From the IMG/VR virus record IMGVR_UViG_3300044950_000198, positions 1 through 38,047 of that record: 38,047 bases of DNA; one strand, given 5' to 3'. Each line of letters opens with the position of its first letter. Position 1 is the first letter of the stretch. Shown here one piece after another: positions 1 to 38,047 of this stretch. The stretch is from a virus. A program made the position numbers and the translations under genes. A model generated the notes under the pieces. It ran no database searches, was not told where the DNA came from, and saw nothing but the letters and a program-made list of their open reading frames with translations.

Positions 1-405
1 CGGCGTATGCTTATGGGTGGTATAGAACAGTCCGGCGTATTCCAGTAAGCCGAAGTCTAACCACACGTCCAGGGTACCAAAGTCCACGTCTAAGGCGACT
101 AACTGGCGGTGGCCTACAAAGCCCTTACGGCGCCACCCGTAGGGCGCCTTAAAGGTTACGTCCTGGCCCTTTATCTTATTGGTACCAGGTAACAGCTTCC
201 CGCCGACGAACCCGCCGACGTCCTTAATTTCGTCCTGTTTGTCCTTCGTGTAGCTAAAGTATTGCTTAACCGTTTCGCTAGTCCTTTCGGTCTGGCTTAA
301 CGTTTCCGCGACTTCTTCCCAGGTCGTCCGTTTGTTCTTCCACTTCGCCGCGTGGGCGCTGTTCGCGGTTGCTATGTCCAGCGCTATATTATGCTTTAAC
401 TTCAT
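1..405 (-). CDS. Primase-helicase, N-terminal part (gene cut by the window ends)
   Basis: This is the first 132 codons of a gene that begins with the ATG at 405-403 and runs off the window start. The 8 bases at 1-8 recur at 38040-38047. With that overlap collapsed, the frame continues without interruption into the minus-strand ORF ending at 35997, giving 815 residues. This part carries a motif like the archaeo-eukaryotic primase metal site (ALDVDFG, D106 and D108) followed by H131/H133, so it is probably the catalytic primase or PrimPol domain. The ATG overlaps the stop of the upstream methyltransferase gene as ATGA, which supports the start and translational coupling. The ATPase half is described at the other end of the window. 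The domain name is inferred from motifs only. Confidence 0.85.
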   Translation of the reverse strand, partial: MKLKHNIALDIATANSAHAAKWKNKRTTWEEVAETLSQTERTSETVKQYFSYTKDKQDEIKDVGGFVGGKLLPGTNKIKGQDVTFKAPYGWRRKGFVGHRQLVALDVDFGTLDVWLDFGLLEYAGLFYTTHKHTP

Positions 406-1475
406 AAAAGTTCGTCTAAATGGATGTGGTTAAATATGTGGGCGATAGTGTCCACGTTCCAGCCGTTACCTAGTTGGTTATACCTTTGGGTATCGCTTAC
501 CATTTCCGTATAGCCGTCGGGTAACGTCTGTAGCCGTTCACATTCTACAGGGGTTAACTTCCGTATCGTGTATAAGCCGTCTTCCAGCTTTACGGGTACC
601 TTCCTGTCTTTATACTGCATAAACCCGCCCAGTACTTCGAAAAATGGTACGTCGTCGCCTACAGGGTAGGTTACCATATTATCGGTAGTAACTGTAGTTA
701 GCGCATTCGCTTTGCCGTCTAATCGTACTTCCGGTCTTTTATAGCGTCCTTCTTTGGTACTACGGGGCCACGAACGTAAGGCGGTACCATACGCTACCGC
801 TAACACATTATAGGGCACCCCTTTAGAATAAGAAGACGTAAGGGTATTATTTTTTATTTGTCCCGTTTGTAATCTACTTAAAAATCGCCCGTTCATTTCT
901 GAGCGCGTTAAATAATCTAAGGCGCCTTCCGTATGGTAGTACTTTAAAGCCGGCCGGCTTTCCAATATATCGGCTAATTTTATCCCGCGGTCTTCCGGGG
1001 CGGTAACGTCCGGTATGTTCGTCCAGTACAGACGTTCGCGGTTTTGCGCCGATACTAGGGCGCTGTTAATGTATACAGGCGAAACGCCTAACGTTTCAGT
1101 TATAACTGCTTCGGCTTCTTTAGGCATACGGTAGTTATTTTCTACAAAGAAGTAACGGGGCTTAACTTCTTTAATCGCCCGTACCTGTTCCCAGAAAAGG
1201 CGCGAATGTTTACCTTCCAGCCCTTCCCGGTTGTTCTTACCTATACTAAGGTCGGTACATGGGAAGCCACCTATAACCATATCGAACCCGCGGTACTGGG
1301 TAAAGTCCGCGCCTTCGACACTTCCTTTTTGTTCTATGTCCGGCCAGTTCCAGTTAGACACCGCGATAGCGTGGGCGTCTATTTCGTACGCCACGTAACG
1401 GGATACAGTTAAGCCCGCCCGTTCTAAAGCCAGGCGGCCACAACTTATACCGTCGAATAAACTAAGTATTTTCAT
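402..1475 (-). CDS. DNA (cytosine-5) methyltransferase
   Basis: A 357-residue C5-cytosine methyltransferase that would transfer methyl from S-adenosylmethionine to cytosine in a specific DNA site. Motif I is at the N-terminus (LSLFDGISCGRLAL). Motif IV has catalytic Cys73 in GGFPCTDLS, motif VI has Glu112 in FVENNY, motif VIII is QNRERLYW, and a motif X-like LGNGWNVDTIAHIF closes the protein. The target-recognition region lies between about residues 190 and 290. No restriction endonuclease gene is adjacent, so it is probably a solitary protective or regulatory enzyme. It overlaps the gene before it (ATGA at 1475-1472) and the primase after it, placing it inside the replication operon. The target site cannot be read from the sequence. 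Confidence 0.93.
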   Translation of the reverse strand: MKILSLFDGISCGRLALERAGLTVSRYVAYEIDAHAIAVSNWNWPDIEQKGSVEGADFTQYRGFDMVIGGFPCTDLSIGKNNREGLEGKHSRLFWEQVRAIKEVKPRYFFVENNYRMPKEAEAVITETLGVSPVYINSALVSAQNRERLYWTNIPDVTAPEDRGIKLADILESRPALKYYHTEGALDYLTRSEMNGRFLSRLQTGQIKNNTLTSSYSKGVPYNVLAVAYGTALRSWPRSTKEGRYKRPEVRLDGKANALTTVTTDNMVTYPVGDDVPFFEVLGGFMQYKDRKVPVKLEDGLYTIRKLTPVECERLQTLPDGYTEMVSDTQRYNQLGNGWNVDTIAHIFNHIHLDELL

Positions 1476-1681
1476 AAATCGAACTTGTGTATATCTACGT
1501 AATGGGTAACATTTTCCAGGGCGGCGCTTTCGCCTTCCGCACTTACACCCGTTACGCTGTCGTCGTTAGCACTAAGATAACCTAATATCTTTTCCTTATA
1601 GCCGTACGTTCCCTTTTGGAAGTTTGCGGCTAAGACTTCCCGCCCCGGTAGATCGTCCGGGGTTACTGGTATCCATTCCAT
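1472..1681 (-). CDS. Small DUF551-like protein
   Basis: A 69-residue protein starting MEWIPVTPDDLPGREVL. The opening W-I-P-V-x-x-x-x-L-P resembles the small DUF551 family common in phages, whose function is unknown. An in-frame ATG eight codons upstream (1705) exists but lies inside the preceding gene. The ATG at 1681 follows that gene's stop at 1683 directly, so it is preferred. The stop overlaps the methyltransferase start as ATGA. The family call is by resemblance only. Confidence 0.6.
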   Translation of the reverse strand: MEWIPVTPDDLPGREVLAANFQKGTYGYKEKILGYLSANDDSVTGVSAEGESAALENVTHYVDIHKFDL

Positions 1682-1682
1682 A

Positions 1683-1898
1683 TTATAATAGTTTTTTGAT
1701 TGCAATATAGTAAACGATAAAAAGAGCTTCTATCGTTAAAAGAAAAAGCGCTAAAGGCCCCCAGCATGGTAGGAAAATTACCCACCACGCCCAGGCTATA
1801 GCGCCGTTAATCCTTAGAAATATCAAAACCGCCGTAGCGGTTATACAGGCGTAAGTACCTAGCCTTCCTAACTTATAGGGTAAAGATTTTCGTTTCAT
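1683..1898 (-). CDS. Small membrane protein, first gene after an early-type promoter
   Basis: A 71-residue hydrophobic protein with a basic N-terminus (MKRKSLPYKLGR) and two probable membrane helices at about residues 13-40 and 45-66. No family is recognised. It is the first gene behind the degenerate early promoter at 1911-1959 and is followed without a gap by the DUF551-like gene and the methyltransferase. Its position after a promoter suggests expression in infected cells. Candidate roles such as superinfection exclusion are speculation. Confidence 0.6.
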   Translation of the reverse strand: MKRKSLPYKLGRLGTYACITATAVLIFLRINGAIAWAWWVIFLPCWGPLALFLLTIEALFIVYYIAIKKLL

Positions 1899-1910
1899 AA
1901 ATGGCCGTTA

Positions 1911-1959
1911 GTTGAATGAATGAACCACAAAAATATATTATTTATTTTAAACTACCTAA
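1911..1959 (-). promoter_or_regulatory. Early-type Bacteroidetes promoter with TTCA-repeat leader (third copy)
   Basis: On the minus strand, TTAG (1959-1956) lies 20 bases before TATTTTTG (1935-1928). This is close to the Bacteroidetes -33 TTTG / -7 TAnnTTTG promoter. It is followed by GTGGTTCATTCATTCA, the same leader sequence as at 28021-28041. The flank ACTACCtAAT compared with ACTACCaAAT shows it is a diverged copy of the two strong modules. The -33 box overlaps the stop codon of the polymerase gene. It would drive 1898 down to the methyltransferase and primase. There is no clear hairpin in this copy. Confidence 0.6.
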
Positions 1960-3914
1960 TCCTTACGATAGTATTTTGATACATAGCCGTCACCTTTAAG
2001 CGGTAAACCCTTAGCCCATACCGGACTAACCGCCATTACTTCGTTCATAACTTCTAAGGTAGCTTCGGCCTTATCGTCGTCCGCTTCCGCTACTATTTCG
2101 TCGTGTATGTGCATAAGTATAGGTATATCGTATTTGCCTATCCCATACATGGCGTTACAAAGACAATCCCGCGCGATAGCCTGGGTAATGTTTTCCGTAA
2201 GAAGACCGCCGTACGCGTCCATTTTAACCCAGATTTTTTTAACCTGGTCTAAGCCCCAGTACGTTATTTTTGAGCCTTCCACGGCCGCCCCGTAGTACGC
2301 CAGCCGCCTCCCGGACGGTAGGGTAATAAACAGGTAGCCCCGTTCGAAGCTAAATTTAAGCGTACAGTATGGTTTACGAAGTACGTAGCTGGTCTTATTC
2401 TTTATAACGTGCTTAGCCGCGTCCTGGACGTCCCGCCATAGTTTTACTATGTGAGGGTTAGCCGAACGCCAGGCGCTAACGATAGCGGGTAATTCCGGTT
2501 CGGTTAGACCTTCCCGCAAAGCGCCCATAGTAATAAGCGCCCCTACGCTTCCCTGGTACCCCAGGGCCAGCGAAGCTACCTTACCCTTACCCCGAAGGTC
2601 GCTACCTTTGGTAACCATTTCTATAGGTACGTGGAACATATTAGCGGCGGTCGCTTCATAAATTTTACCGTGTGTGCGGAATACTTCTAACTGCCATTCT
2701 TCGCCAGCTATCCAGGACACTACGCGCGCTTCGATAGCGGAAAAGTCAGACACGGCCAGCGACTTACCGGGGGCGGCCACCAGGGCCGTACGTACCAGCT
2801 TACTAATTAAGTCCGGTACGTCGTCGTATAACAGTTCGGCCACGCCTTTACGTACGGCTTCCTTCGCTACTTCTAAGTTACCTTTGATCGTCCGCTTTAG
2901 GTTTTGTATCTGGACACCGCGACCGGAATAACGGCCCGTACGGTTAGCCCCGTAGAACTGCAAAAGACCGCGTATACGGCCGTCGCTACCTACATAGTCT
3001 AACATAGTCCCGTACTTACTGGTAGACGTCTTAGAACCTATCGCGCGAAGTTCCAGCACGCGGGCCACGTCGTCCGGTAATAAGTCGTTATCCACCGCGT
3101 CGGCTAAGTATTCCTTACCGATACTTTTAACGTCCTGGCCCAGCTTCTTTTTAAGCCAGGCTTTTAGCTGTACGGGGCTGTTAGGGTTACTTATCCCGGT
3201 AATGTCTATTATTTCCTGGCGTACTTCTTCTACCAGGCGGTCGTTAACTTCTATGGCCGCTTCGATAAAGCCGCGGTCTATAGTTATCCCGGTACCGTTT
3301 ATTACCTGGTCTTGTACCCAGTATTCGCGCTCTATGTCTGGAAGCCCAGGAAGGCGCGAAACGTACTTTAATATCTCACATTCTACCCGGACGTCCTGGC
3401 CGTTGTAATACTTAAAGTCTTCCCATTTTTCCGGGTCGTCGGTTGGTTCGTTAGTTGTCCGGCCGCCGTTCTTCTTCGTCGGTTTGCATGGCTTACAAAA
3501 GAACTGTATAAGGGCTTTACCTTTTGCGTCCTTTTGGTGTACTAAGCCTAACACCTGGCCCACCTTATCCAGCCCCAGGGGTAAGCCCAGGTAAGCGGCC
3601 GCCACCATAGTACAAAACCACTGGCGAAGGTCTAGGCCCAGCCCGAAGTAAGTACCGATACAAACGTATTCAAAATTCGCATTGTGGGCGATTTTAAGCA
3701 CGTCCGGCGACGTTAGGGCCTTCCATACGTCCGCTGGTATACTTTCGCCTGGGAACGCGTCGTAGTACGTATCTAGTACGGTTACGGGCTGGTCGTCCCA
3801 GGCGTAAGCGAATAGGATAATTTTAAAGCTGGGGTCTTCCGCGTAACGGTATACCCCTACATCGCCTACGTCCAGATCGCAAAACGTTTCTATATCTATG
3901 TGTAACTTTCTCAT
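1956..3914 (-). CDS. DNA polymerase I-like (family A) with 3'-5' exonuclease domain
   Basis: A 652-residue replicative DNA polymerase of family A. The N-terminus has the DEDD exonuclease motif D7-I-E9-T. The polymerase domain has motif A with D390 in SDFSAIEAR, the O-helix motif B around KGKVASLALGYQG, and motif C with D605 in HIHDEIVAE. No 5'-3' exonuclease domain is present, as is usual for phage-type polymerases. It would copy phage DNA together with the primase-helicase and the DUF2815-like ssDNA-binding protein. Its ATG overlaps the stop of the DUF4494-like gene as ATGA. The stop abuts the promoter at 1911-1959. Confidence 0.97.
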   Translation of the reverse strand: MRKLHIDIETFCDLDVGDVGVYRYAEDPSFKIILFAYAWDDQPVTVLDTYYDAFPGESIPADVWKALTSPDVLKIAHNANFEYVCIGTYFGLGLDLRQWFCTMVAAAYLGLPLGLDKVGQVLGLVHQKDAKGKALIQFFCKPCKPTKKNGGRTTNEPTDDPEKWEDFKYYNGQDVRVECEILKYVSRLPGLPDIEREYWVQDQVINGTGITIDRGFIEAAIEVNDRLVEEVRQEIIDITGISNPNSPVQLKAWLKKKLGQDVKSIGKEYLADAVDNDLLPDDVARVLELRAIGSKTSTSKYGTMLDYVGSDGRIRGLLQFYGANRTGRYSGRGVQIQNLKRTIKGNLEVAKEAVRKGVAELLYDDVPDLISKLVRTALVAAPGKSLAVSDFSAIEARVVSWIAGEEWQLEVFRTHGKIYEATAANMFHVPIEMVTKGSDLRGKGKVASLALGYQGSVGALITMGALREGLTEPELPAIVSAWRSANPHIVKLWRDVQDAAKHVIKNKTSYVLRKPYCTLKFSFERGYLFITLPSGRRLAYYGAAVEGSKITYWGLDQVKKIWVKMDAYGGLLTENITQAIARDCLCNAMYGIGKYDIPILMHIHDEIVAEADDDKAEATLEVMNEVMAVSPVWAKGLPLKGDGYVSKYYRKD

Positions 3915-4318
3915 TTGAACACGTCCAGTATAGAAGTTTCGGTAATCCCGGTTACCCGGTAGTCTATCATAGTCCCGGCCATAACTTCCGTAAGTCGTGG
4001 CCCCGCCGCTTTGTAATCGTCGGCGTTAAACAGGATAGACCGGGGCGAAGTCTTAATACCGCCGCTGTCTGTAGTGGTAATAATAAGTACCCGCGCTTTG
4101 TAGAAGTACCCGCCGTTATCGTTGGTTTGTATTTCCTGGTAAGGCGCGCGGCGTATGTTCGCTATTTCGTATTCGCCGGATATATACGGTAACATTTGGT
4201 CGGTTATTTTGGCTTCCGCTTCGGTATAGCTAAGCGCGTCCAGTAAGTACGTTTCGGTAACTCTTTTTACCTTACCGCCGTCCTGGGTCTTTTCGTATTT
4301 AATTTTTACTTCAAACAT
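3911..4318 (-). CDS. DUF4494-like protein
   Basis: A 135-residue protein closely resembling the DUF4494 family of Bacteroidetes and their phages. Supporting segments are KIKYEKTQDGGKVKRVTETY, LLDALSYTEAEAKITDQM, PYISGEYEI and the C-terminal ETSILDVFK. The function of the family is unknown. Its place directly upstream of the polymerase, with 4-bp overlap, suggests a role in DNA metabolism or simple co-expression. It overlaps the preceding small gene by 8 bp. The family assignment is from memory of the consensus, not a search. Confidence 0.8.
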   Translation of the reverse strand: MFEVKIKYEKTQDGGKVKRVTETYLLDALSYTEAEAKITDQMLPYISGEYEIANIRRAPYQEIQTNDNGGYFYKARVLIITTTDSGGIKTSPRSILFNADDYKAAGPRLTEVMAGTMIDYRVTGITETSILDVFK

Positions 4319-4547
4319 AGATTACATATTTTAAACATGGTTCTGAATAATCGGTAGTTACTTCGCCTACGGTCTTCCATTCGTCCGCGGTCTTTATTTG
4401 GATACGCCCGGTATCGCCGCCTATGTCGTAGATCAGCTTTGAGTTTTCCGGGGTAATAGTAAGGCCGAAACGCTGGCCTAGTTCTTCGCGTAAAGTGGCG
4501 CCGTACGTTTTAACGAAGTCGGGCCAAAGGTCTTTAATTATATCCAT
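4311..4547 (-). CDS. Hypothetical protein (78 residues)
   Basis: Starts MDIIKDLWPDFVKTYG and ends CLKYVIYV. A longer frame reaching 4607 exists, but the ATG at 4547 lies next to the stop of the gene before it (4538), which fits the tightly packed operon better. No motif is recognised. It is mildly acidic and probably folds as a small alpha/beta domain. It overlaps the DUF4494-like start by 8 bp. Confidence 0.6.
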   Translation of the reverse strand: MDIIKDLWPDFVKTYGATLREELGQRFGLTITPENSKLIYDIGGDTGRIQIKTADEWKTVGEVTTDYSEPCLKYVIYV

Positions 4548-4801
4548 TTTGTTAATATTTGTTTTCCAGCCGTCCCGTATTCCTTCGGGTAGGCGTCGTC
4601 GGTACAATCTACAAAACTATACATATATTCAATCTTACCCAGGGCGCCAATAAAGGCGGATTTAATTACTGCTTTTTTGCCCCGCGCTTTTACCATTTCG
4701 CCGTTAGCGTATATACGATTAGCCGCGATATATTCCGCTTCTAAAGCGTCTAATTTAGTGGCTATCTCTAACCGGGCGTATCTGTATTCTGAATAGCCCA
4801 T
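4538..4801 (-). CDS. Hypothetical protein (87 residues)
   Basis: Begins MGYSEYRYARLEIATKLDALEAEYIAANRIYANGEMVKARGK, with a predicted helical N-terminal half and basic middle. No family is recognised. It is the first gene after the terminator at 4805-4837, and no clear promoter is visible in front of it. It may be expressed by read-through of that terminator. It overlaps the next gene by about 10 bp. Confidence 0.55.
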   Translation of the reverse strand: MGYSEYRYARLEIATKLDALEAEYIAANRIYANGEMVKARGKKAVIKSAFIGALGKIEYMYSFVDCTDDAYPKEYGTAGKQILTKWI

Positions 4802-4804
4802 ACT

Positions 4805-4837
4805 TGTAAAAAAGGGCGACCGTTATAGCCGCCCTTT
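4805..4837 (-). terminator. Intrinsic terminator after the ssDNA-binding protein gene
   Basis: An 8-bp perfect stem, AAAGGGCG / CGCCCTTT (4811-4818 with 4830-4837), closes an 11-base loop. On the minus strand it is followed by a run of six T. It lies 15 bp after the stop at 4852. It would separate the nuclease and ssDNA-binding genes from the polymerase genes, or attenuate transcription into them. Confidence 0.85.
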
Positions 4838-4851
4838 GGGGTTTTTAATGG

Positions 4852-5406: not shown

Positions 5407-5429
5407 AATTGTAAATTGTTTGATGAAAA

Positions 5430-5792: not shown

Positions 5793-5796
5793 AAGA

Positions 5797-6084: not shown

Positions 6085-6096
6085 ACGTTAGAATGG

Positions 6097-7700: not shown

Positions 7701-7728
7701 AATTGATTTATTTATTAAAACAGCCGGG

Positions 7729-7932: not shown

Positions 7933-7934
7933 AT

Positions 7935-7989
7935 TGAATGAATGAATGAATTACACGGCAAAGGTAAATAAAAAAATCGCACTACCAAA
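7935..7989 (-). promoter_or_regulatory. Strong early promoter, copy 1 (minus)
   Basis: On the minus strand TTTG (7989-7986), a 19-base spacer and TACCTTTG (7966-7959) form a textbook Bacteroidetes -33/-7 promoter. The leader that follows carries TTCATTCATTCATTCA up to the ATG at 7932. It is nearly identical to the plus-strand promoter at 27986-28041. It would drive the early operon 7932 to 4852. The spacer contains the T-tract of the overlapping terminator. Confidence 0.88.
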
Positions 7990-8022: not shown

Positions 8023-10989
8023 TTATACATAGGCTTCCCATTCATAGCCGCCCGCCCCGCTAACCGTAAAGCCGCTTTTACTCGTGCTATTAACCATTAC
8101 GGCGCCATTTTGGAATATGCGAACGGTAGGCGCGGCCGCCAGTTCAAAACCGAAGTTAACATTACCCCCGGCGCTTACACCGGATAAGGCGCGGTATTTG
8201 ACTCCGCCCCCGGTGCCTACAAAACGGCGCGGGTAATCTACTTTAAGAACGCTAGCCAGTAAAAGCCTATACAGTTCTACGCCCGCGTCGTTAAGGTGTG
8301 TACCGTCGGAATATATGCCCGAACTATACCCGTTGTTCATTTGGTAATAATTTAGGTCTATACTGGCAAAACCATATTTAGCTACTAGGCTCCGAAGAAT
8401 TGTTAGCCCTTCATTTGGGGCGAAAGGTCGCGACGTGTCCCACCCTGTAGAATTATGCGTAACCAAAGTTAGAACGGGGCAACCCAGCGACGCCAGGCGC
8501 TTAAATACAGCTTCGTTATTAGCCGCGTACGTTGCTAACTGCTGCTTTAACTGCGTGCTACCTAGAACCCAGGCGGCGCCGTCGTATTCCATATAGTCGC
8601 CAGCTACCAAAGATAACCCGTTAAAATTGGCGTATACCCCCGTAACCGAAGCGTACCAAAAGTCGTTTAGCGCCGGGGTGGAAGAAGGCGCGGTAGCGGT
8701 AGTAGCGACGCCTTTAAATTTTGTTATCATTCCGGTACCCAGGTCGTTAAGGTATGGAAGTTCGTATATGATTAACGCGGGGTTATACATAACACTATAG
8801 AAGCGTTCCCAGCGTGCTAACTGGCTAGCGGCCACGTTACCGCCTTCCGCGGTTATAACTACGTTTACGCGTGGCTTAGCCCAGGTTTCAAAGCCCCAAA
8901 CGGGTAAGCCACCAGTAAGAACGGATACGCGTAACTTATACGTAACGGCTGGGTTAAACCCCTTCCAGATAAGGTTACCCCACTTATACGCGTTAGCGGG
9001 CAAAGTGTAGCGGCCGTCTGTACCGTTGTTCGCCCAGCTACATACTAGGCCCAGACTTTCCGGCGTTACATAGGTAGACCCCCCGTTTATAGATACTTCC
9101 GCTTTAATTTGGTTATTCATACCCCAGCCAGTACCATAGTAAGAAGAGTAAATAAATTTAGCATGGCTGGCGCCCGTGAAGGTTAAAGCGATAGACGAAT
9201 TAGCGGTATCGCTACCACAAAGGCGTATACAATCCGCCCCTACTAATCCTAAATCGGCCCAGGTTCCGGCCTTTGTGATTTCGGCCGCTACGTGGTTAAA
9301 GTATTTAACGTCGGCGTGGGGAAACTGCAACATATTTAAAACCTTGTATCCTACTACCTGTTCCCACATATTCGGCGGGAAGTGGCCCGTAACATACCCG
9401 GCGTTTACTTCGGCCGGATTATTGCAGTCAGGCGTTACGGATATTTCGGCGGTAGCGGGGGTAAATGTGGACTTATCCACCCGGCCAAATATACTATCGC
9501 CTACCATAGTAACGGTAAGCTGGTTAAAGTCGTCTACTTCCTGCATTTCGTATTTACGTAAAAATTCGCTAATACGCGCCGTATTATATGCTACATTATT
9601 CGCTGGGTCAGGCAGTTGCTTAGTACTAAACGCGGCTTCTATCGCGGCGTTTAGCACGGGTACGGACGGCGTTAAAAGCCAATCGTTTATCAATTCGGAT
9701 GCGCTAAGGGTATCGGCGCTATCGCCGAATTTCATAGCCAAACCCGTTACGGCGAAGTCGCCTACTGTATAGTCGGAAGGTACTAAGGCCGCTTCCCAGA
9801 CAGAAGCTATAAAGATATAGTTAAGCGTCCCGGTGTAGGAAATTAAAAAGGTCTTATCTACCCTATATACATTGTCGGATACTTTAGTAACTGTTACCGC
9901 ACCATTTGTCGAACCGGTACCGACCATAGTAACCGACCCCGTAGTAGTATTAGCGGATATACCTAAACGCCCCCCGGATAAATTCGCGGGGGCCACACCA
10001 TTTTTAGTATACAGATACCACCTAACCCGGCAGTATTTCCCGTTATTTGCGGCGAACAGATTAGCTAGCCCGTTCATGGGTGCCGGGTTGCTTGGTCTTA
10101 TCCAGTAGTATAGTTCTACGTTAGTCGCTTTTGCGGCGCTCATAACGTTAGATAGGCCCAACGTATTTACTAAATAGTCGTCCGTTGTCGGTAAGATCGT
10201 ATAGGGGGCGCTGTGGTTTCTAGTAGTTGGGCTTATTAAGGCGCCGTCTACTACTTCCGACCGTAATACGGGCGCTGTGACCGCCGTTTCCAGCAAAGAT
10301 ACGCGTACGTCCATTTCCTTTACTAAGTCTTCGGTAAGATCGGTAAGGCGGAAATTTTCGTTATATGAAGACCCGGTATTAATCCCGCAAATATACAGCA
10401 CGTCAGTAGCTAAAAAAGTACCCCCCGTTTTTTTCTTCAATACACACTCTAACCAAACGGCCGTTTTACCCACACCGTCGCCCGTATATTTATCCTTGCC
10501 AGATACTAGATATAGGCCGTCGGTTATTTTTGACAGGGTGCCGTTACCTGTAGTTAACGTGCCGCCCAAATAAAATACCTTAGCACGGTCAGCGGTTAAT
10601 AATTCGATTTCCGCGTTGGGGCTGTACACTAAAAAAGACCACTTAAAAAATTGGTCGGGTTTAGGCATTACAAACCCCGCGTTTATAGGGGCGTTTACAT
10701 AAAATTCTACGTTTGCGGCAGTACCGGACGGCACACACTTATACGCCTTTGTTAAGCCCAAATTAGATAGGGGCGCGAAAGTTGGTAAATCTAAGATATT
10801 AAAAGTACCGTTATATCCAAATACAGAATATAGGGAAGGTAGTAACGGGCTTAAAACCCCATTAGCGCCAGCCTTATTACGTTCAATTGTAGAAGCCGTA
10901 ATACCCGCTTCTAATTCCTTATCGTTAGCGTATAGTAAGTCGGCTACCTGGGCGCCTGTTTGGCCCTCTGTAATTTTGTTAATGCTCAT
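8023..10989 (-). CDS. Tail fibre / receptor-binding protein with SGNH-hydrolase domain
   Basis: A 988-residue protein ending the structural operon. The N-terminal part (MSINKITEGQTGAQVADLLYANDKEL) is typical of phage fibre attachment regions. The middle is beta-rich with repeated carbohydrate-module-like sections. From about residue 490 there is an SGNH/GDSL hydrolase: block I TMVGDSIFG with Ser499, then a late DGTHLND with D895 and H898. Such domains commonly deacetylate or de-esterify surface polysaccharides, so it probably trims host capsule during adsorption. The roughly 400-residue span between Ser and Asp/His suggests an inserted beta domain. The last about 60 residues may be a trimer tip. 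Substrate is unknown. Confidence 0.85.
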   Translation of the reverse strand: MSINKITEGQTGAQVADLLYANDKELEAGITASTIERNKAGANGVLSPLLPSLYSVFGYNGTFNILDLPTFAPLSNLGLTKAYKCVPSGTAANVEFYVNAPINAGFVMPKPDQFFKWSFLVYSPNAEIELLTADRAKVFYLGGTLTTGNGTLSKITDGLYLVSGKDKYTGDGVGKTAVWLECVLKKKTGGTFLATDVLYICGINTGSSYNENFRLTDLTEDLVKEMDVRVSLLETAVTAPVLRSEVVDGALISPTTRNHSAPYTILPTTDDYLVNTLGLSNVMSAAKATNVELYYWIRPSNPAPMNGLANLFAANNGKYCRVRWYLYTKNGVAPANLSGGRLGISANTTTGSVTMVGTGSTNGAVTVTKVSDNVYRVDKTFLISYTGTLNYIFIASVWEAALVPSDYTVGDFAVTGLAMKFGDSADTLSASELINDWLLTPSVPVLNAAIEAAFSTKQLPDPANNVAYNTARISEFLRKYEMQEVDDFNQLTVTMVGDSIFGRVDKSTFTPATAEISVTPDCNNPAEVNAGYVTGHFPPNMWEQVVGYKVLNMLQFPHADVKYFNHVAAEITKAGTWADLGLVGADCIRLCGSDTANSSIALTFTGASHAKFIYSSYYGTGWGMNNQIKAEVSINGGSTYVTPESLGLVCSWANNGTDGRYTLPANAYKWGNLIWKGFNPAVTYKLRVSVLTGGLPVWGFETWAKPRVNVVITAEGGNVAASQLARWERFYSVMYNPALIIYELPYLNDLGTGMITKFKGVATTATAPSSTPALNDFWYASVTGVYANFNGLSLVAGDYMEYDGAAWVLGSTQLKQQLATYAANNEAVFKRLASLGCPVLTLVTHNSTGWDTSRPFAPNEGLTILRSLVAKYGFASIDLNYYQMNNGYSSGIYSDGTHLNDAGVELYRLLLASVLKVDYPRRFVGTGGGVKYRALSGVSAGGNVNFGFELAAAPTVRIFQNGAVMVNSTSKSGFTVSGAGGYEWEAYV

Positions 10990-25635: not shown

Positions 25636-26862
25636 ATGGAAGAAAGTAACAAAGAATTGGTAGTAATAAATATGGCCGCGGCCGACACGGCGCCCGCGTT
25701 CCCTAAAATCGCGCTTAACCGCGCGGGCTGGATTAACTTCGGCCCTAAAAACGACTTCCCCCAGGAACTTATACGCATTAACGCCAAAAGCCCGGTTAAT
25801 AGCGCCATAATAGACAGTACCGTAACTTATATTTGTGGTAAGGGCGTCCGCGATACCCCAGAAAACGCCGAACTTTTCGTAGGCGTCCCGAATACTTCCG
25901 AAAACTGGGACGACTTTATAGAACCTATCGCGAAAGACTATAAAACCTTCGGCGGCTTCTACTTCCAAGTAATCGTTAATAAGGGTAGTACTACCGTGTC
26001 TTTGTTCCACCAGGATTATAGTACCGTCCGTATCGGCCGTATTAGCGAAACAGGCGACCCGCTTAGCTTCCGTATTTCGAACGACTGGAAGAAGACCCAG
26101 GGAAAGTTAAAACCTATCGAACTGGATATATGGCCGGGTATACGTAAGGCTAAAAAGGGGGTGGCCTATATGTTCCACCACTGGGATTATACGCCGGGCC
26201 TTAACCATTATTCCGTACCGGGCTACTTCCCGGCGATTGAATACGTAAAGGCCGACGGTACGCTAGGCCAGTTCTATAATAATAGCATAGATAACGGCTT
26301 TACCCCTTCGGTCGTTATTAAAATGCCTTCGAACCCTTCCGAAGACAAAAAAGCAATGTTTCAAAAGCAAATGGAAGACGCGTTTAGCGGCGCTAAGGGC
26401 GCTTCGTCTATCATTATCCTTTGGGGCGAAAACACCGACGTTAAACCGGATATAGTGCCGTTTAACGCCAGCGCTAACGCGGACATATACAATAATATCG
26501 AAGGTATCGTATTCCAAAAAATCGTAAGTAGCCACCGCCTTAGTAGCCCTACCCTGGCCGGGGTGTCCGGTTCGGGTAACCTATCCGGTAACGCCGCCGA
26601 AATTATCGACGCGTACGTACTTTATAACTACACTGTTATCGAAAAAATGCGACGTAAAATACTGGATAAGGTTAATATATTCACTAAGATAAACGGAACG
26701 GCGGCCCTTACTATAGCCGACCTGGACGTACTACCAAAGATACAGGAAACGAATAATCCGGCGCCAGCCGCCGCCCCGGAAGCTAAGGCCCCGGCTACTT
26801 TGCAAAGAAAAAAGCCGCGCGCCCTTCGCGCCCTGGAAGCGCTAATAGCTAAACTAAAATAA
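25636..26862 (+). CDS. Portal protein
   Basis: A 408-residue protein resembling Bacteroidetes-type portal proteins: WINFGPKNDFPQELIRINAKSPVN near the start, SAIIDSTVTYICGKGV, then DYKTFGGFYFQVIVNKG and a long helical stem. The C-terminus is Ala/Pro-rich with a basic end (RKKPRALRALEALIAKLK). Twelve copies would form the ring through which the terminase packages DNA. Unlike the other head genes it is on the plus strand, divergent from the chaperone. The whole gene contains no GAG or CTC trinucleotide. Confidence 0.92.
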   Translation: MEESNKELVVINMAAADTAPAFPKIALNRAGWINFGPKNDFPQELIRINAKSPVNSAIIDSTVTYICGKGVRDTPENAELFVGVPNTSENWDDFIEPIAKDYKTFGGFYFQVIVNKGSTTVSLFHQDYSTVRIGRISETGDPLSFRISNDWKKTQGKLKPIELDIWPGIRKAKKGVAYMFHHWDYTPGLNHYSVPGYFPAIEYVKADGTLGQFYNNSIDNGFTPSVVIKMPSNPSEDKKAMFQKQMEDAFSGAKGASSIIILWGENTDVKPDIVPFNASANADIYNNIEGIVFQKIVSSHRLSSPTLAGVSGSGNLSGNAAEIIDAYVLYNYTVIEKMRRKILDKVNIFTKINGTAALTIADLDVLPKIQETNNPAPAAAPEAKAPATLQRKKPRALRALEALIAKLK

Positions 26863-28006: not shown

Positions 28007-28041
28007 ATTTACCTTTGTCGGGTGGTTCATTCATTCATTCA
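27986..28041 (+). promoter_or_regulatory. Strong early promoter, copy 2 (plus)
   Basis: TTTG (27986-27989), a 20-base spacer, and TACCTTTG (28010-28017) form a textbook Bacteroidetes promoter. The leader repeats TTCATTCATTCA up to the ATG at 28053. It is an inverted, nearly identical copy of the module at 7935-8000, differing by one A in the spacer and a few leader bases. Confidence 0.88.
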
Positions 28042-30399: not shown

Positions 30400-30411
30400 C
30401 TGTTTTGATTA

Positions 30412-31587
30412 TTAGCGGCGGGACGCGCTACCTACGGTAACGTCGAAGCCCGAAGCTATGTTAGACAATTTATTTAAAAATACGTACCGTTCAGCGTCCT
30501 TTGCGTGGCCGAAGGCTTTTATAGGGATACCGCCGTAGCCGCCTGTAGGTAGCTGGGGGTAACGGTACTTCCGGTTTTCGTCGATACTATCTACGCTTCG
30601 CTGGGTGTAGTGCTTTTTATAGCGGTTCATTACCCTAATACCTAACTGTATGTCTTTGTTATTGGTCGCCACGGCGTTAACGCCCGCGTTTTGTAGTTCC
30701 TTAATACTCTTTGGTTCGGCCCCGTCGCAAATGGTTTCTAATTCGCCGTAGCCGGAAGTAAGTATACAGGTAGCTATATCCGGGTTATCCATACCGGGGC
30801 CGTAGCCTAGCTGGTCTATCCATACTTCACCCTGGCTTAACACCACCAGCATAATAGCCGAAGGGGCCGACCAGCCGAAGTCTATACCTATATACGCCTG
30901 GCGCCATTCGCTACGCGGTGGAAGTCCGGCGACTATATCCCAGTTCTTAACTACCAGACCTTCGGCGCTTCCAGTAAGGCCCAGCCCGTACACGCGCCAC
31001 CATTCCGGGTCTATGTCGCGGTTACTTTCGATTTCCGCTACCTGGGCCGCGGTTAACATATCGTTATCTAAATACGTGGAATGTATTATACGAACGTCGG
31101 CGCGGGGCGCTAACTTACTATCTACCCAAAATTCGAAGGCCGGGTTATAGTCTAGTATTATTTTTTCGGTAGTACGTACGGCTAACTGGCGGTACACTTC
31201 CCACGACATATTAATAGCTTCGTTCATATAAAGAATGTCGCGGGCTGGCCCTAGTACCTTACCCGCCTGGTCGGCGCTAAAGAACTCTATACGGCCTTTG
31301 TTATAGCTGTAAATTTTGTCGGTGTCGTGCCAGGCGTTAACGTTGTACGCGTTTTCGCCTTCTAACATATTCTTAAAATCGCGAATAGCCCCGCGTTTTA
31401 GGTGGGGCATAGTTTCGGACACTACCGAAATTAAACGCGGCTTCTTAGACCTGGCGCCGATAGTATTAAGCAACTGCAAAGCCGACCACGTTTTACTACT
31501 ACGCGTACTACCTTTAAGGGCGATAACGCGTACGGACGGGTCTACGTAGGCGGCCAGTAGGTCGCTAAATACTTTTGTAGTTTCCAT
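30412..31587 (-). CDS. terL: Terminase large subunit (PBSX type)
   Basis: A 391-residue DNA-packaging motor. The ATPase has Walker A at residues 26-33 (GSTRSSKT), a Walker B-like DILYMNEA with Glu123, and SVVSETMPHLKRGAI near 55. The RNase H-like nuclease has D236 in GIDFGWSAPSA and D288 in ICDGAEPKSIKEL. This matches the PBSX/Terminase_3 group. The ATG overlaps the small-subunit stop as TAATG. Confidence 0.95.
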   Translation of the reverse strand: METTKVFSDLLAAYVDPSVRVIALKGSTRSSKTWSALQLLNTIGARSKKPRLISVVSETMPHLKRGAIRDFKNMLEGENAYNVNAWHDTDKIYSYNKGRIEFFSADQAGKVLGPARDILYMNEAINMSWEVYRQLAVRTTEKIILDYNPAFEFWVDSKLAPRADVRIIHSTYLDNDMLTAAQVAEIESNRDIDPEWWRVYGLGLTGSAEGLVVKNWDIVAGLPPRSEWRQAYIGIDFGWSAPSAIMLVVLSQGEVWIDQLGYGPGMDNPDIATCILTSGYGELETICDGAEPKSIKELQNAGVNAVATNNKDIQLGIRVMNRYKKHYTQRSVDSIDENRKYRYPQLPTGGYGGIPIKAFGHAKDAERYVFLNKLSNIASGFDVTVGSASRR

Positions 31588-32902: not shown

Positions 32903-33215
32903 AAATTCGGAATTTTGTTTTAATGTATAAATAATTGATTAGACCCACCAGGAAGGCTACGCCGATTAACCCGGCTATAACAATTACCCGCGCTTCGGTG
33001 TTAAGTACAGGGGCTACGTAGCGTACCAGGACGAAGGCCCAGGCCACACCCATAAGCCAGGTAAGCCAAAAGGACATACACCCCCTACAGTTAAAGGGCT
33101 TTTTCTTAATCGGTAGTATAATTACTTCCGTAAAAAACCAGGCTAAAACCCACGCTATCAACGCGTTAGCCAACATAACGGCCGCGGCCACTAAAATAAA
33201 AACAAGTGTTTGCAT
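32895..33215 (-). CDS. Membrane protein with CxxC motif
   Basis: A 106-residue protein with three probable membrane helices (about 3-30, 50-68, 75-97). Between the first two is KKKPFNCRGCMSFWLTW, a CxxC pattern repeatedly seen in Bacteroidetes phage membrane proteins. It overlaps the next gene start by 8 bp. It is the first full-length gene after the late-promoter motif at 33238-33253. Role unknown. Confidence 0.65.
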   Translation of the reverse strand: MQTLVFILVAAAVMLANALIAWVLAWFFTEVIILPIKKKPFNCRGCMSFWLTWLMGVAWAFVLVRYVAPVLNTEARVIVIAGLIGVAFLVGLINYLYIKTKFRIYE

Positions 33216-33219
33216 ACTC

Positions 33220-33237
33220 TTAAAAATTACGGTTCAT
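33220..33237 (-). other. Five-codon mini-ORF at the start of the packaging unit
   Basis: The ATG placed exactly three bases after the late-promoter motif opens a five-codon reading frame (M-N-R-N-F-stop). Its stop lies four bases before the ATG of the CxxC membrane gene (33215). It may be an incidental product of the promoter's fixed ATG, or a leader peptide coupling translation. Confidence 0.4.
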
Positions 33238-33253
33238 ACTATAAAGATAAAAA
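33238..33253 (-). promoter_or_regulatory. Late promoter motif, copy 3
   Basis: TTTTTATCTTTAT (minus 33253-33241), three bases (AGT), then ATG at 33237. It is identical to the copies before 15078 and 11855. It lies immediately behind the stop of the sigma-like gene and would drive packaging and lysis genes. Confidence 0.65.
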
Positions 33254-33254
33254 A

Positions 33255-33905
33255 TCACAAAAGCGATAGTAAATAGTCGCGGCGGTCGGCAAAGCGTACG
33301 GCCACGTCTTTACGTATAGCGCCTATTACGGGCCATATCTTATTAGCCGGAATACCTAGCATACGCGCCAGTTTTTTGTAGGACATTTCGGGCTGCAAAG
33401 TTACGTATATTTCGAAAAGCGATACACTAACCTGGTCGTAACTGGCGCGTACGTGTTCCAGTATTTCGTTTTGTACCGCGTCTAATTCCATTTCGTAGGT
33501 AGTATAATCGAAGGTCGGCGCGGGCAAAATATCGCCGTACATAATTTCGCCTATTACGGGTTCGTCCACCGACACGAAGGCGGCGCGCGCTTCGCCGTTT
33601 TTCTTTTTCGCGCCCAGTAACGCGGTATGGTAAGCGCGCAAATAATACCATTTGTAGTTATCAATCTTTAGCCCTTTATACGCGATACAGTCGTACAGGT
33701 ATAACGCCGTATCCGTTGCTACTTCGTCGTCGTAAAATTCGTCGTAAAGTAACTTACTTCTAAGCGCGTCGAAGTTATCGCCGTACCATTTCATAAATTC
33801 ACTGGCGCGCGCTTCCGCTTCGGGCGTCGCGATTTCGTCGCCGCGAAGTTTAACGTATTTTTTACCCTTATTACGCCCGCCGCTATTTCCGTATTTTGCT
33901 GCCAT
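33255..33905 (-). CDS. Sigma-factor-like HTH transcription protein
   Basis: A 216-residue protein. A helical part (ATDTALYLYDCIAYKGLKIDNYKWYYLRAYH) resembles sigma region 2, and a C-terminal helix-turn-helix (MSYKKLARMLGIPANKIWPVIGAIRKDV, about residues 172-200) resembles region 4. The N-terminus is basic (GGRNKGKKYVK). It may direct RNA polymerase to the late-promoter motif, which sits just downstream of this gene. It overlaps the helicase gene by 23 bp. A general DNA-binding regulator is the alternative. Confidence 0.65.
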   Translation of the reverse strand: MAAKYGNSGGRNKGKKYVKLRGDEIATPEAEARASEFMKWYGDNFDALRSKLLYDEFYDDEVATDTALYLYDCIAYKGLKIDNYKWYYLRAYHTALLGAKKKNGEARAAFVSVDEPVIGEIMYGDILPAPTFDYTTYEMELDAVQNEILEHVRASYDQVSVSLFEIYVTLQPEMSYKKLARMLGIPANKIWPVIGAIRKDVAVRFADRRDYLLSLL

Positions 33906-35340
33906 ACTTTCGCCTTAGTTCTTTAATTTCGTTTAATAAAAATGTTTGGTTAGTCTCTTTACTTCCCAGGCGCTTACGTACCTTAATATCGCGCGTACCC
34001 AGTGCTATTAATCGGTGTATATAAATTTCGCTTAGCGCGCCGCGCCGAAGTAAGCGCGCTACTGTTTGCTGGTAGTGTTCCAGGTTCCACGTTACGGAAA
34101 ACCATACCATACGACGCCCGCCAAATTGTAGGTTAAGGCCGTGGCCCGCCCCCGCCGGGTGTATAAGTAGTAGCCGTATTTTTCCTTCGTTCCAGTCCCG
34201 GAAGTCTTCGACCAGCCCTTTACCCTTCCTAAATTCGCGGGCGAACGGGAAGGCCGCTTTAATCCGTTCTACTTCGTGCCTGAACTGGTAGACTACTATA
34301 AAGGTTTCTTTAGGGTGTCGGTCTAACAGCCCGCCCAGCGCTTTTATTTTAAGGTCGTTTACCTGGTGCCATACGCGCGGCGCTTTCTTATCTACCCGGT
34401 CTTCGTAGATAGCGCCGCTACTTACCTGTAGTAGCTTGTTAGTAAGATCGGCGGCCGTCTTTACCGTTACTTCGCCCCCGCCTAAAAAGTCTAACGTATA
34501 TTCTTCTTCTAGGGTGTCGTATACTTCCCGGTCGAACGGGGCTAACTGTATTTCTTCGTCTACCGTATGAAGGTCGGGTAATTTCAAATAGTCCCGCGTT
34601 TGCATGGTTAACGCTATGTCCTGTATCTTTTTGGCTATTACCGCGGGCGCCCCTGGCCGTGGGATATATTCGTAGACTATCATACCGTTACCGCGGGTCG
34701 TAAAGTACTTATCCAAATACTTACCGAACGTATCGCCCAGGCGTCTACCGTCGTCTAGTAACATCATTTGCGCCCATAGGTCTATATATCCGTTAGGCGA
34801 AGGCGTCCCGGTCATACCTATACGGTAGTCTACCTTACTGTTATCCAGGGCGCGGCGTAACTTCTTAAACCGCCCGCTATCGCGGCCCTTAAATAAACTA
34901 AGTTCGTCCAGTACCAGGCTATCGAATGGGAGCGACCCCAGCCAGGGGCCGTACGGTTTGCCCGTTACTTTACTTTTACGCTGGTATATAAACTTATCAA
35001 TTAGCCAGGCCAGGTTATCTATTCCAATTATGTATATTTCGGCGTCGGCTTGTATCGCCGCTTCGCGCTTCTTAGCGTCGCCCGCTATAAGGCTGTAGCG
35101 TATCCCTTCCAGGTGTTCCCATTTAGCCAGTTCGTCGGGCCAGGTTAACCGGGCCACTTTGTCCGGGGCTACTACCAGCGTCTTAGTTATCGCGGCTTCC
35201 CGGTAGTGCATATCGTACAGGTACGTTAAAGCTATTACCGTTTTGCTTAACGACATACCTAAGAATAGCGCGGCCCGTGGATTGGCTACCAGGTGGTCGT
35301 ACGCTTCTATCTGGTGGGGGTCTGGGTTGTACTTAATCAT
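33883..35340 (-). CDS. SNF2-type superfamily 2 helicase/translocase
   Basis: A 485-residue protein. A Q-motif-like PDPHQIEAYDHL precedes motif I GMSLSKT (28-34), motif II is DELS in LVLDELSLFKGRDS, motif III is TGTPSPNGYIDLW, and motif VI is QQTVARLLRRG. It matches the phage SNF2-like helicases that often sit with a VRR nuclease and primase. It would remodel DNA at forks or during recombination. Motif I (S for the usual G) and motif II (S for H) are slightly unusual. It is coupled to the nuclease gene by ATGA. Confidence 0.92.
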   Translation of the reverse strand: MIKYNPDPHQIEAYDHLVANPRAALFLGMSLSKTVIALTYLYDMHYREAAITKTLVVAPDKVARLTWPDELAKWEHLEGIRYSLIAGDAKKREAAIQADAEIYIIGIDNLAWLIDKFIYQRKSKVTGKPYGPWLGSLPFDSLVLDELSLFKGRDSGRFKKLRRALDNSKVDYRIGMTGTPSPNGYIDLWAQMMLLDDGRRLGDTFGKYLDKYFTTRGNGMIVYEYIPRPGAPAVIAKKIQDIALTMQTRDYLKLPDLHTVDEEIQLAPFDREVYDTLEEEYTLDFLGGGEVTVKTAADLTNKLLQVSSGAIYEDRVDKKAPRVWHQVNDLKIKALGGLLDRHPKETFIVVYQFRHEVERIKAAFPFAREFRKGKGLVEDFRDWNEGKIRLLLIHPAGAGHGLNLQFGGRRMVWFSVTWNLEHYQQTVARLLRRGALSEIYIHRLIALGTRDIKVRKRLGSKETNQTFLLNEIKELRRKYGSKIRK

Positions 35341-35615
35341 AGCGTTAATATAAAGCCGTCCACCGCTTCCCGCGTGTCCAGGACTTCCACCCGGAAGCCT
35401 AAAGAGCGTAAACGGTTATGTATTTTTTCCTGTAGCTTCCTGGGCTTTTCGCCCGGCGCTTTTGTTTCTACGAAAACAACCAACGCGGGGGCCGCTAAAC
35501 ATATCCTATCTGGGAAGCCCGCGTAGAATAGCGGCGGGAACTTTACGCACATACCCCCGGTAGCGCTTTCCCACTCACTTATTAAATAGTTTTCTACCTG
35601 TTTTTCCTTTGCCAT
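35337..35615 (-). CDS. VRR-NUC nuclease
   Basis: A 92-residue PD-(D/E)XK nuclease of the VRR type: E8 in QVENYLI, D36 in GFPDRICL, E50-T-K52 in FVETKAPG, and Q62 in KLQEKI. A frame reaching 35669 exists, but it would run through the GGTTACA repeats, so MAKEKQVEN at 35615 is used. It probably cuts branched DNA. It is the usual partner of the SNF2-like helicase. Confidence 0.88.
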   Translation of the reverse strand: MAKEKQVENYLISEWESATGGMCVKFPPLFYAGFPDRICLAAPALVVFVETKAPGEKPRKLQEKIHNRLRSLGFRVEVLDTREAVDGFILTL

Positions 35616-35996
35616 TTCTTTGGTTACATTTTGCCGTTTTTGGTTACACCTTAACGGCTTAATTATCAATCGTTTAACTTTTTACGTTTTTCTTTGGTTA
35701 CACTTGGTTACATTTTGCGCCCTTGATACTCAACGGTTTAGCCCGATTTTGTAACCAAAAAACTGTAACCAAAGGTTTAAAACTCCTTACGGGCGTATAT
35801 AGGTGTGTAAATAGGTATTTTCCCTATTTTATATACTAATATACTCTTTACCCTATTTTTTGGTTACATAGTTACACTTGATACGCGCCCCGCTGTGAAT
35901 CAATTAGTTAGGGTGTAACCAACGCCCGAAATTTGGTTACACGCGCTTTTAGTTTAATTCGTTAAGCCTCAACGCTTTAAGGTGTAACCAATGTAA
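35616..35996. other. Gene-free iteron region, putative replication origin
   Basis: This 381-bp stretch has no credible gene. It holds ten exact GGTTACA/TGTAACC copies, on plus at 35622, 35642, 35696, 35706, 35862, 35935 and on minus at 35750, 35764, 35914, 35983. Two one-base variants are at 35870 and 35992. Between the two halves is an AT-rich core (about 35795-35860) with repeats of CCCTATTTT. It lies between the nuclease-helicase and the primase-helicase. Iterons plus an AT-rich unwinding region are typical of replication origins, but a promoter/operator is the alternative. It is the only gene-free stretch over 300 bp. Confidence 0.65.
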
Positions 35997-38047
35997 CTAA
36001 GCGCGTTTCGTGTACATTTTTTGCGCCCCGTACCATTTGACACGCGCGGCGGGCGCTGGCGTCCAATCTCTAAACGTTTTCATAACGCGCCCTATGTCCA
36101 TACTATCGCGTCGCGTTATGTCTTCCGGGGCCTTGCCTAAACATTCCGTCCAGATTTCCAGGATACACACGCTACCCCGTTCTACCGTCCCTACGTTGTC
36201 TTCTTCTTTTAGCCACTGGCGACGGCTATACGGTTCCAGGGTGTCCCAGTTCTTCGGTAACTTCCGTTCCAGGTATTCGCGTATAAGCCCGCTTCGTTCG
36301 TCTTTCTCTAAGTGCTTATCCTGGATAGCGCGGGCGACACCTTCTAAGTCGTCTTCTAAGTACAACTTTTCGCCACGGGCGTAACGTTCCTTCGCTTCGG
36401 CCCATAGCTGGGCTACGGTGGTCTTACTCATATAATCGTAAAACGGGGTAACCCCTACGCGTCCTTTGCAGTTCATAACCCAAAAGCGGCGGTTACCTGT
36501 AACGTCCCTTAAAAAGTCTTCTTCGTTCGTAGTGCCAAAGAACACGCAACGGCGCGGGAAGTGTTCTATACGTTTGCCATACGCCACCCGGTAGCGGTCT
36601 TCGGTCTTACTTACGAAGTGCTTAACCGCATCCACTTCCGCCCGGCGTAGGCCCGCCAGTTCGCCCAGTTCGATAAGCCAGGCGCCTTGTATACTTTCTA
36701 ACGCTTCCTTACCCGTAAGGGTCGTAACGCTATCGCTAAACCAGTCGCCGCCCATAGCCTTTAAAGTGCTGGACTTCCCTACGCCCTGGTCGCCTATGAT
36801 AACTACTATATAGTCGTACTTAATACCAGGCTGGTAAATACGGGCCACGGCCGCCGCGAAGGACTTACGGGTAATAGCCCGCGTATAGTCGGTATCGTCC
36901 GCGCCGAACAAACGTATAAACAAAGTGTCCAGGCGTTCCACGCCGTCCCATTCCAACGCGTCCAGGTACGACCGTATAGGGTGGTAGCTGTTGGCTTTGA
37001 TAACCACCGTTAAACCGTCCGCTAACTTTTCCTTACCCGTTATATCGTAGCACCGTTCGAAGTATAAGCGTAATTCGGCGTCGTCGCTATCGCACAAAGG
37101 GCGCGGGTACTTCGTACCTACCTTATCCCAGGGTAAAGCCTTTACCGCGGTTTCCCGTTGTTCGAACTCATTAAAGCCAAAACACCCGGCTAAGTTCGCG
37201 TCGTTGTTGAGGATAAGCACCACGTTATTAATAGTACTTTTAATCTTACCGCTTTTACCTTCGGTTTCCAGTTCGCCTACCCAGTCGTCGTTAGTCGCGG
37301 TATCGCGGGCTTTCGTTTCCAGGGTGTCGTAATCGTTGGCCGTGCTTTCGCGGCGTTCCCGTACTATTTCTTTTTTGACTTCTTTAAGCGCCCCGGCAAA
37401 ATCGGCCATAGCTTTATAGCTGGGTGTTTTGGTTACTTCGGTGTCTTCCTTTACGCGTTCGTCCAGATCGCCGAACTTATGAAGCCTAACCAGGTCGAAG
37501 GCGTTACACAACTTACCGCCCGCCGGGTCGGTGTTGTGGTGGCTGTACGCTAACTTATGGTCGTAAACGATAAGCCCGCCGCTGGTCGAACCCGCGATAA
37601 AGCTATAGCGGTCGTCGCCCAGTTCTTCACAGGGCGCGTAAATGTCCGGCAAAAATTCGGCTATCGCTTCGTCCAGGGTAAACGCCCTACAGAACGCGCC
37701 GACTATACCGCCTTTAGCTTCCGGGTCTTCTACCTGGTTGCTGGCGCTTCGCCTTACTTCCGTTTCGCGGGAAGACGCGGGCCAGGTCGTTACGTCTGTC
37801 CAGTCGTCCAGTTCGGCTAAAATATCGTCGGCCACCATTATAGGGCCGTCGATAAGGTTAGTTAAAAATTCGCCGTCTTTCGAAGTGCTGGGATAATACA
37901 TTAACCGCGTAGGCTGGTAGGTCGTATCGTCGAACATTTCTATATCTAACCAGGAAGCCACGACCCGCGCGATACATTCGTATTCGTCCGGGGTTACTGG
38001 CCTATCCAATGGGAAGACAATACGGAAGCGCGGGACTTCCGGCGTAT
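35997..38047 (-). CDS. Primase-helicase (PrimPol plus VirE/D5-like ATPase), main part
   Basis: The C-terminal 682 codons of an 815-residue protein whose start is the ATG at 405 (see the entry at 1-405). Just inside this part, RFRIVFPLDRPVTPDEYE and FDDTTYQPTRLMYYPS look like the rest of the primase catalytic domain. The C-terminal half is a VirE-type ATPase with Walker A GDQGVGKS (Lys557) and later VFFGTTNEEDFLRDVTGNRRFW. It would prime and unwind phage DNA at the adjacent origin. A TTG at 38009 could be misread as a start if the window ends are ignored. It stops as TAG at 35997, inside the last iteron-like repeat. Confidence 0.9.
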   Translation of the reverse strand, partial: TPEVPRFRIVFPLDRPVTPDEYECIARVVASWLDIEMFDDTTYQPTRLMYYPSTSKDGEFLTNLIDGPIMVADDILAELDDWTDVTTWPASSRETEVRRSASNQVEDPEAKGGIVGAFCRAFTLDEAIAEFLPDIYAPCEELGDDRYSFIAGSTSGGLIVYDHKLAYSHHNTDPAGGKLCNAFDLVRLHKFGDLDERVKEDTEVTKTPSYKAMADFAGALKEVKKEIVRERRESTANDYDTLETKARDTATNDDWVGELETEGKSGKIKSTINNVVLILNNDANLAGCFGFNEFEQRETAVKALPWDKVGTKYPRPLCDSDDAELRLYFERCYDITGKEKLADGLTVVIKANSYHPIRSYLDALEWDGVERLDTLFIRLFGADDTDYTRAITRKSFAAAVARIYQPGIKYDYIVVIIGDQGVGKSSTLKAMGGDWFSDSVTTLTGKEALESIQGAWLIELGELAGLRRAEVDAVKHFVSKTEDRYRVAYGKRIEHFPRRCVFFGTTNEEDFLRDVTGNRRFWVMNCKGRVGVTPFYDYMSKTTVAQLWAEAKERYARGEKLYLEDDLEGVARAIQDKHLEKDERSGLIREYLERKLPKNWDTLEPYSRRQWLKEEDNVGTVERGSVCILEIWTECLGKAPEDITRRDSMDIGRVMKTFRDWTPAPAARVKWYGAQKMYTKRA
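38040..38047 (+). repeat. 8-base terminal overlap with positions 1-8
   Basis: CGGCGTAT ends the window and also begins it. Collapsing the two copies restores one uninterrupted reading frame across the junction (2,448 nt, divisible by three). Keeping both copies would break the frame. This suggests a circular or circularly permuted genome rather than true ends. Confidence 0.8.

Follow-up and report, generated by a model that had tools for sequence, protein, structure and literature searches.

Type I restriction-modification (R-M) systems recognize bipartite sites in which two half-sites of approximately 3 to 5 bases are separated by a spacer of 5 to 8 (PMC6158711), and in each half one base, usually an adenine, becomes methylated, the two bases lying on opposite strands at a listed Me-interval of 6 to 9 (PMC3874165, Table 1). 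For the Bacteroides fragilis group, 639 methylation motifs have been described, and bacterial genomes are themselves motif depleted (Tisza et al. 2023, PMC10333322). In Prevotella intermedia, also a member of the Bacteroidales, the motifs GAGN6TGG, GAGN6TTA, and GAGN4TAC have GAG in common, and specificity genes rearrange within culture in one strain (PMC5608340). A survey of almost 4000 prokaryotic virus genomes reported that Type I sites are not avoided and that temperate phages have less often lost their Type II sites completely (Rusinov et al. 2018, PMC6286503). Here, we analyze IMG/VR virus record IMGVR_UViG_3300044950_000198, a phage genome studied over its whole length of 38,047 nucleotides (the window), from which many bipartite words are missing together with nearly all copies of the trinucleotide GAG and its complement CTC. 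Very probably, the cause is long selection against a large repertoire of restriction systems, of Type I and of similar bipartite kinds, because the absent word pairs are limited to spacers of 4 to 9 bases and each has an A to the left of the spacer and a T to its right.

Pairs of 3-mers separated by g bases were called absent when at least 12 were expected and at most one occurred, a pair and its reverse complement both being counted. For g = 0 to 12, the window lacks 221, 13, 2, 2, 21, 48, 53, 47, 22, 6, 0, 0, and 2 pairs, respectively, and for g = 13 to 20 it lacks none. Once double counts are removed, 106 distinct absent words remain at g = 4 to 9, 91 asymmetric and 15 interrupted palindromes. 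All 106 carry A on the left and T on the right, compared with 30% of the tested pairs, and the same is true of 98 to 100% of the absent words in seven related phages. Examples are AAGN6CTT (0 observed versus 33 expected), AAGN5TCG (0 versus 27), GAAN5TTC (0 versus 25), CGAN6TTC (0 versus 23), and CCAN7TCG (0 versus 20). Host DNA from Bacteroides stercorirosoris and a Rikenellaceae genome, each of which harbors a relative, has no absent pairs at g = 2 to 13. Likewise, one simulated realization of a null that keeps the proteins and the strand-symmetric 4-mer preferences gave 0 absent pairs at g = 4 to 9, compared with 194 in the real coding sequence, and it still reproduced the GAG/CTC count (66 versus 60). 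Single A..T pairs follow the same geometry, with observed-to-expected ratios of 0.90, 0.85, 0.86, and 0.88 at separations of 7, 8, 9, and 10, respectively, and 0.98 at 6, in agreement with the published Me-intervals of 6 to 9 (PMC3874165). Among more than 80 DNA sets, this spacing statistic is strongest in the window; it is mostly approximately zero in Dysgonomonas prophages and weakly positive in the Bacteroides phages B40-8 and BT24. A preliminary description of the sequence had guessed at a host defence, and the missing words give that guess substance, since they combine the spacing of Type I sites with the A and T that such sites require.

Published motifs behave accordingly when the same half-sites at spacers of 11 to 30 in the same genome serve as the control. 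Interrupted palindromes and their derivatives occur 4 times in the window versus 58 in the spacer-shifted control, eight Bacteroidales motifs 29 versus 62 times (P = 2.8e-6), and 36 general Type I motifs 103 versus 142 times (P = 3.3e-4). In the hosts, lambda, T7, and crAss001, these motif sets lie near 1 relative to spacer-shifted controls, without depletion. The bipartite architecture is also that of Type IIB and interrupted-palindrome enzymes, which are here inseparable from true Type I systems; the window has no site for the Type IIB enzyme BcgI (CGAN6TGC). Some Type II palindromic sites are missing as well (GGWCC, 0 versus 69; GANTC, 6 versus 147), so that other R-M types probably act too, but avoidance of Type II sites leaves the depletion of GAG unexplained.

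The features to which we refer are as follows (S, C or G).

1..38047, no strand: the entire phage genome, with GAG/CTC reduced to 0.06 of expectation, S-A and T-S steps disfavored, and, at spacers of 4 to 9, 106 absent bipartite A..T words.
25636..26862, plus strand: portal gene, the example used in the preliminary description; approximately 30 GAG/CTC expected with the protein kept.
30412..31587, minus strand: terminase large subunit, the query for finding relatives.
402..1475, minus strand: C5-cytosine DNA methyltransferase; target-recognition region variable among relatives.
35670..35996, no strand: iteron-like noncoding region with TTGGTTACA / TGTAACCAA repeats; 4 of the 66 residual sites, all CTC.
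35997..38009, minus strand: VapE-like replication gene, apparently running on over the contig ends into 1-405.

The preliminary description had reported that the portal gene lacks GAG and CTC and, by eye, that the whole window holds some tens of them against roughly a thousand expected. Exact counting agrees: the portal gene has neither word, and the window has 66 copies, strands pooled, versus 1163 expected from base composition (ratio, 0.06). By the same measure, TGA/TCA occurs 240 times versus 1213 (0.20) and GCA/TGC 351 times versus 1163 (0.30), while CAT/ATG and CAC/GTG reach 0.41 and 0.47 of expectation. The approximately four TGA/TCA noted in the portal gene are one TGA and three TCA, and the codon junctions singled out there hold as well, since TCN never stands behind a C-ending codon (0/12), AGN never behind a G-ending codon (0/16), and GAN only once behind a T-ending codon (1/43). 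That the bias goes beyond codon choice is evident from the two other frames, where GAG (6 and 14 versus 43 and 82) and CTC (9 and 9 versus 99 and 86) fall short of a null that keeps protein and codon use by factors of 6 to 11 and by many standard deviations (standard deviations, 5 to 9); the counts are thus far from a codon-preserving expectation. Coding and template strands are equally depleted with the protein kept (GAG, 39 versus 642; CTC, 21 versus 354). The depletion had been ascribed to coding DNA, with the iteron region as a counterexample. The 4 CTC of that region are real and make up 4 of the 6 nongenic sites, but the 1.6 kb outside called genes, of which 1-401 is in fact coding, holds those 6 GAG/CTC versus approximately 49 expected at the window average, so that noncoding DNA is depleted as well.

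The genes are evenly depleted, none with a significant excess of GAG/CTC. Recent gene import was rejected as a source of the residual sites for this reason, and the orphan gene at 8023-10989 is itself GAG poor (8 versus 76), with TCA/GCA less depleted (0.40). Start codons were rejected likewise, ATGAG starts accounting for a minor share (5/66). The orphan encodes 988 amino acids, lies near the tail genes, has no homologue in the compared relatives, and gave no Pfam match; its product is possibly a tail fibre.

The preliminary description had left open whether selection acts at the DNA or the RNA level. We modeled every synonymous codon choice from its neighbors; a strand-symmetric word model with 44 parameters scores -0.886 nats per codon, versus -1.031 for codon identity. 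Twelve strand-symmetric mono- and dinucleotide parameters reach -0.968 nats per codon, versus -1.030 for 63 parameters that include codon identity; strand-symmetric trinucleotides improve this to -0.885, and strand-specific words add almost nothing (-0.881). In the relatives, strand-symmetric words also beat codon identity, in one of them (G003) only with trinucleotides, whereas in host DNA codon identity outperforms dinucleotides. The force therefore acts on double-stranded DNA, because strand-symmetric words predict synonymous choice better than codon identity does. Selection on RNA is not supported, given the near-zero contribution of nonsymmetric word weights, which leaves the DNA half of the original proposal standing, and codon usage or a host signature was rejected on the codon-preserving null and on host DNA, the hosts of the relatives not sharing the bias. 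Choices at fourfold sites disfavor T when C or G follows, C when A follows (with the exception of AG), and G when A follows. The frequency of C before TC falls to 0.05 of its average and that of G before AG to 0.07. The composition rule that follows from these preferences is that S-A and T-S steps are avoided on either strand. Altogether, about 0.3 nats per codon of synonymous freedom is lost.

Trinucleotide bias and avoidance of bipartite words seem to be a single phenomenon, because the depletion of a word correlates with the suppression of its partner and because T-A words and words made only of C and G (CGC, CCG, GCC) are over-represented. Partner suppression was computed for each A-containing trinucleotide as the deficit of T[CG] 4 to 8 bases downstream. 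It is seen behind words with a G or C in front of the A (GAG, 0.31; CAC, 0.29; GAC, 0.33; GAA, 0.43) and missing behind GTA, TAA, TAC, TAT, and CTA (1.05 to 1.19). The correlation of depletion with suppression has a rho of 0.65 in the window and of 0.45 to 0.63 in relatives with a strong signal, with the exception of one of them, G004 (0.29).

Context-dependent mutation, in which a phage polymerase or cytosine methyltransferase would make C in CTC-like contexts mutate fast without any selection, is the least improbable alternative, and we still regard it as very unlikely. In its favor, the bias is graded and strand symmetric and spans 4- and 5-mers, and the phage encodes a C5 methyltransferase. 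Mutational contexts, however, span few neighboring bases and do not predict the absence of pairs with A on the left and T on the right 4 to 9 bases apart. Furthermore, the third base before TC is G in 58 cases, T in 58, A in 16, and C in 2, so that T is not the only substitute for the lost C, although T is slightly more frequent here than in the TT context and others; deamination of 5-methylcytosine was rejected, since G replaces the lost C as often as T does. The phage methyltransferase was rejected as the cause too, its presence in relatives not tracking the bias: G005 has CTC at 0.21 with no homologue found and G001 at 0.86 with one.

Depletion of a protospacer adjacent motif (PAM) is more doubtful still. 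GAG/CTC would then be the PAM of the hosts' clustered regularly interspaced short palindromic repeat (CRISPR) systems, lost so as to evade many spacers together. Such depletion is known in phages (PMC4246573, PMC12174588), and a few residual sites would be tolerable, but it does not predict gap-specific word pairs. B. stercorirosoris does have a CRISPR array with a Cas9-like protein, yet none of its 26 spacers credibly matches these phages, and the Rikenellaceae genome gave no Cas1 match. We give equally little weight to avoidance of some other dimeric DNA-binding protein or of a DNA structure such as hairpins or bending. Dimeric DNA-binding proteins do typically use inverted half-sites spaced by about one helical turn; the half-sites here, however, are many and vary among related phages, every absent word has A on the left and T on the right, the pattern does not recur at 14 to 20 bases, and the asymmetry of 91 of the 106 words speaks against hairpins. 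Recognition of CTN trinucleotides by a primase, entertained as an idea only, does not predict gap-specific pairs either.

If restriction is the selective agent, as we infer, its logic may be outlined as follows. A Type I site consists of two half-sites with one methylated adenine each, on opposite strands; fewer sites would mean less cutting on entry, and changes that break a site, mostly synonymous ones, would be kept. Escape may take two ways. Usable half-sites in which A stands behind G or C (GAG, TGA, TCA, GCA, CAC, CAT, CAA) would be thinned, GAG/CTC almost to nothing, and the remaining GAA, CGA, CCA, AAG, CAG, and GAC would be kept from a partner at a dangerous spacing. Safe words, either without A or T (CGC, CCG, GCC) or with A behind T (TAA, GTA, TAC), would thereby become over-represented. 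Conceivably, dropping a half-site that is common to many changing specificities is the cheapest general escape, and GAG may have been removed as such a shared half-site. It thus seems likely, with somewhat less assurance than the cause itself, that a clade of Bacteroidales phages, one member of which is an integrated prophage, evaded the whole class of Type I restriction purely through its sequence, that selection against a very large half-site vocabulary shaped the frequencies of di- and trinucleotides as well as many synonymous choices, and that the specificities of the hosts' systems may be read from the missing words.

Collinear phages were found by the terminase search at approximately 50 to 80% terminase identity. 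Two of them lie in host genomes, one as a 39.3-kb contig in B. stercorirosoris DSM 26884 and one as a prophage in a Rikenellaceae metagenome-assembled genome, with an integrase-like gene and chromosomal genes alongside. The Rikenellaceae prophage has approximately 4 to 5 GAG/CTC per 2 kb versus approximately 50 in the adjoining DNA. In B. stercorirosoris, CTC, TCA, and GCA stand at 0.83, 1.10, and 1.33 in host DNA versus 0.19, 0.41, and 0.47 in the phage. The most avoided word varies among relatives (CAG at 0.16 in G008, CTA at 0.25 in G003, CTC at 0.21 in G005), and differences within the sole near-identical pair with the trait that was compared are insertions and deletions only. G004 (L026-L027) has lost CCGG (0 versus 291 expected under a Markov model) and GATC (0 versus 100), and G006 (L030-L031) retains 2 CCGG and 4 GATC; neither has a C5 methyltransferase homologue, and both losses are Type II avoidance. 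In the relatives with a weak signature (G001, G016, and G017), no anti-restriction gene was found among eight accessory genes scanned. G016 encodes an Eco47II-type restriction endonuclease (L167:14364-15116).

Several points weigh against Type I restriction as the cause. The depletion of CTC depends on the next base (CTCG, 3 versus 313; CTCC, 9 versus 192; CTCT, 27 versus 181; CTCA, 27 versus 59), a dependence not expected of a bare 3-bp half-site. Depletion does not extend to all listed motifs (CGAN6TACC, 23 versus 11), and G003 (L025) avoids CTA/TAG (0.25) without partner suppression for CTA and so departs from the half-site correlation. Matches to the specificity subunit HsdS (Pfam PF01420) number 0 in B. 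stercorirosoris DSM 26884 and 1 in the Rikenellaceae genome, both of them hosts of relatives of the window virus. Finally, Rusinov et al. did not see phages in general avoiding Type I sites (PMC6286503).

Regarding the genome itself, both ends of the 38,047-base record carry the 8-base direct repeat CGGCGTAT, and the VapE-like gene appears to run on in frame across the contig ends (1-405 and 35997-38047); therefore, the record probably represents an entire circular genome, opened inside this gene. The adjoining region with the repeated TTGGTTACA / TGTAACCAA words looks, from its sequence, like a replication origin. Tandem repeats of TTCA (or TGAA), described earlier as forming the early leaders, are present in 3 to 4 units near gene starts at 28026-28041, 7935-7950, and 1913-1924. 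The C5 methyltransferase possibly provides additional protection against other restriction systems. None of the 29 window proteins scanned gave a Pfam match to the anti-Type I proteins Ocr, ArdA, and ArdB.

Type I systems had been considered too changeable for phages to escape site by site, yet the phage group described here appears to manage a large repertoire together. If true, this runs counter to the notion that avoidance of Type I sites does not evolve in phages. Phage genomes would then record the restriction specificities of uncultured hosts, the odd genome signatures of some phages would gain a mechanistic reason, and the statistics of A..T pairs by spacing would offer a simple scan of viral collections for Type I pressure. 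In a limited literature search, avoidance of Type I sites across the whole class was not found described.

As in the study of Rusinov et al. (PMC6286503), a phage genome loses recognition sites to escape restriction; the sites there are orthodox Type II sites, whereas here many bipartite sites are lost together in a clade with a prophage member. Depletion of PAMs in phages (PMC4246573, PMC12174588) is likewise a loss of short words that allows escape from host immunity, but it concerns single contiguous words, with weaker effects and no bipartite geometry. Also related are mobile elements without particular Type I sites, namely Staphylococcus aureus plasmids and phages (PMC3753647) and phage phiAGO1.3 (PMC6346686). 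In the accessible parts of these reports, few specificities are concerned and were tested by motif, and neither genome-wide half-site avoidance nor a trinucleotide signature is reported. The R-M repertoire of the B. fragilis group is of the size that such avoidance would need, but the study deals with bacterial genomes and, in its accessible part, does not describe bipartite avoidance on the phage side (Tisza et al., PMC10333322).

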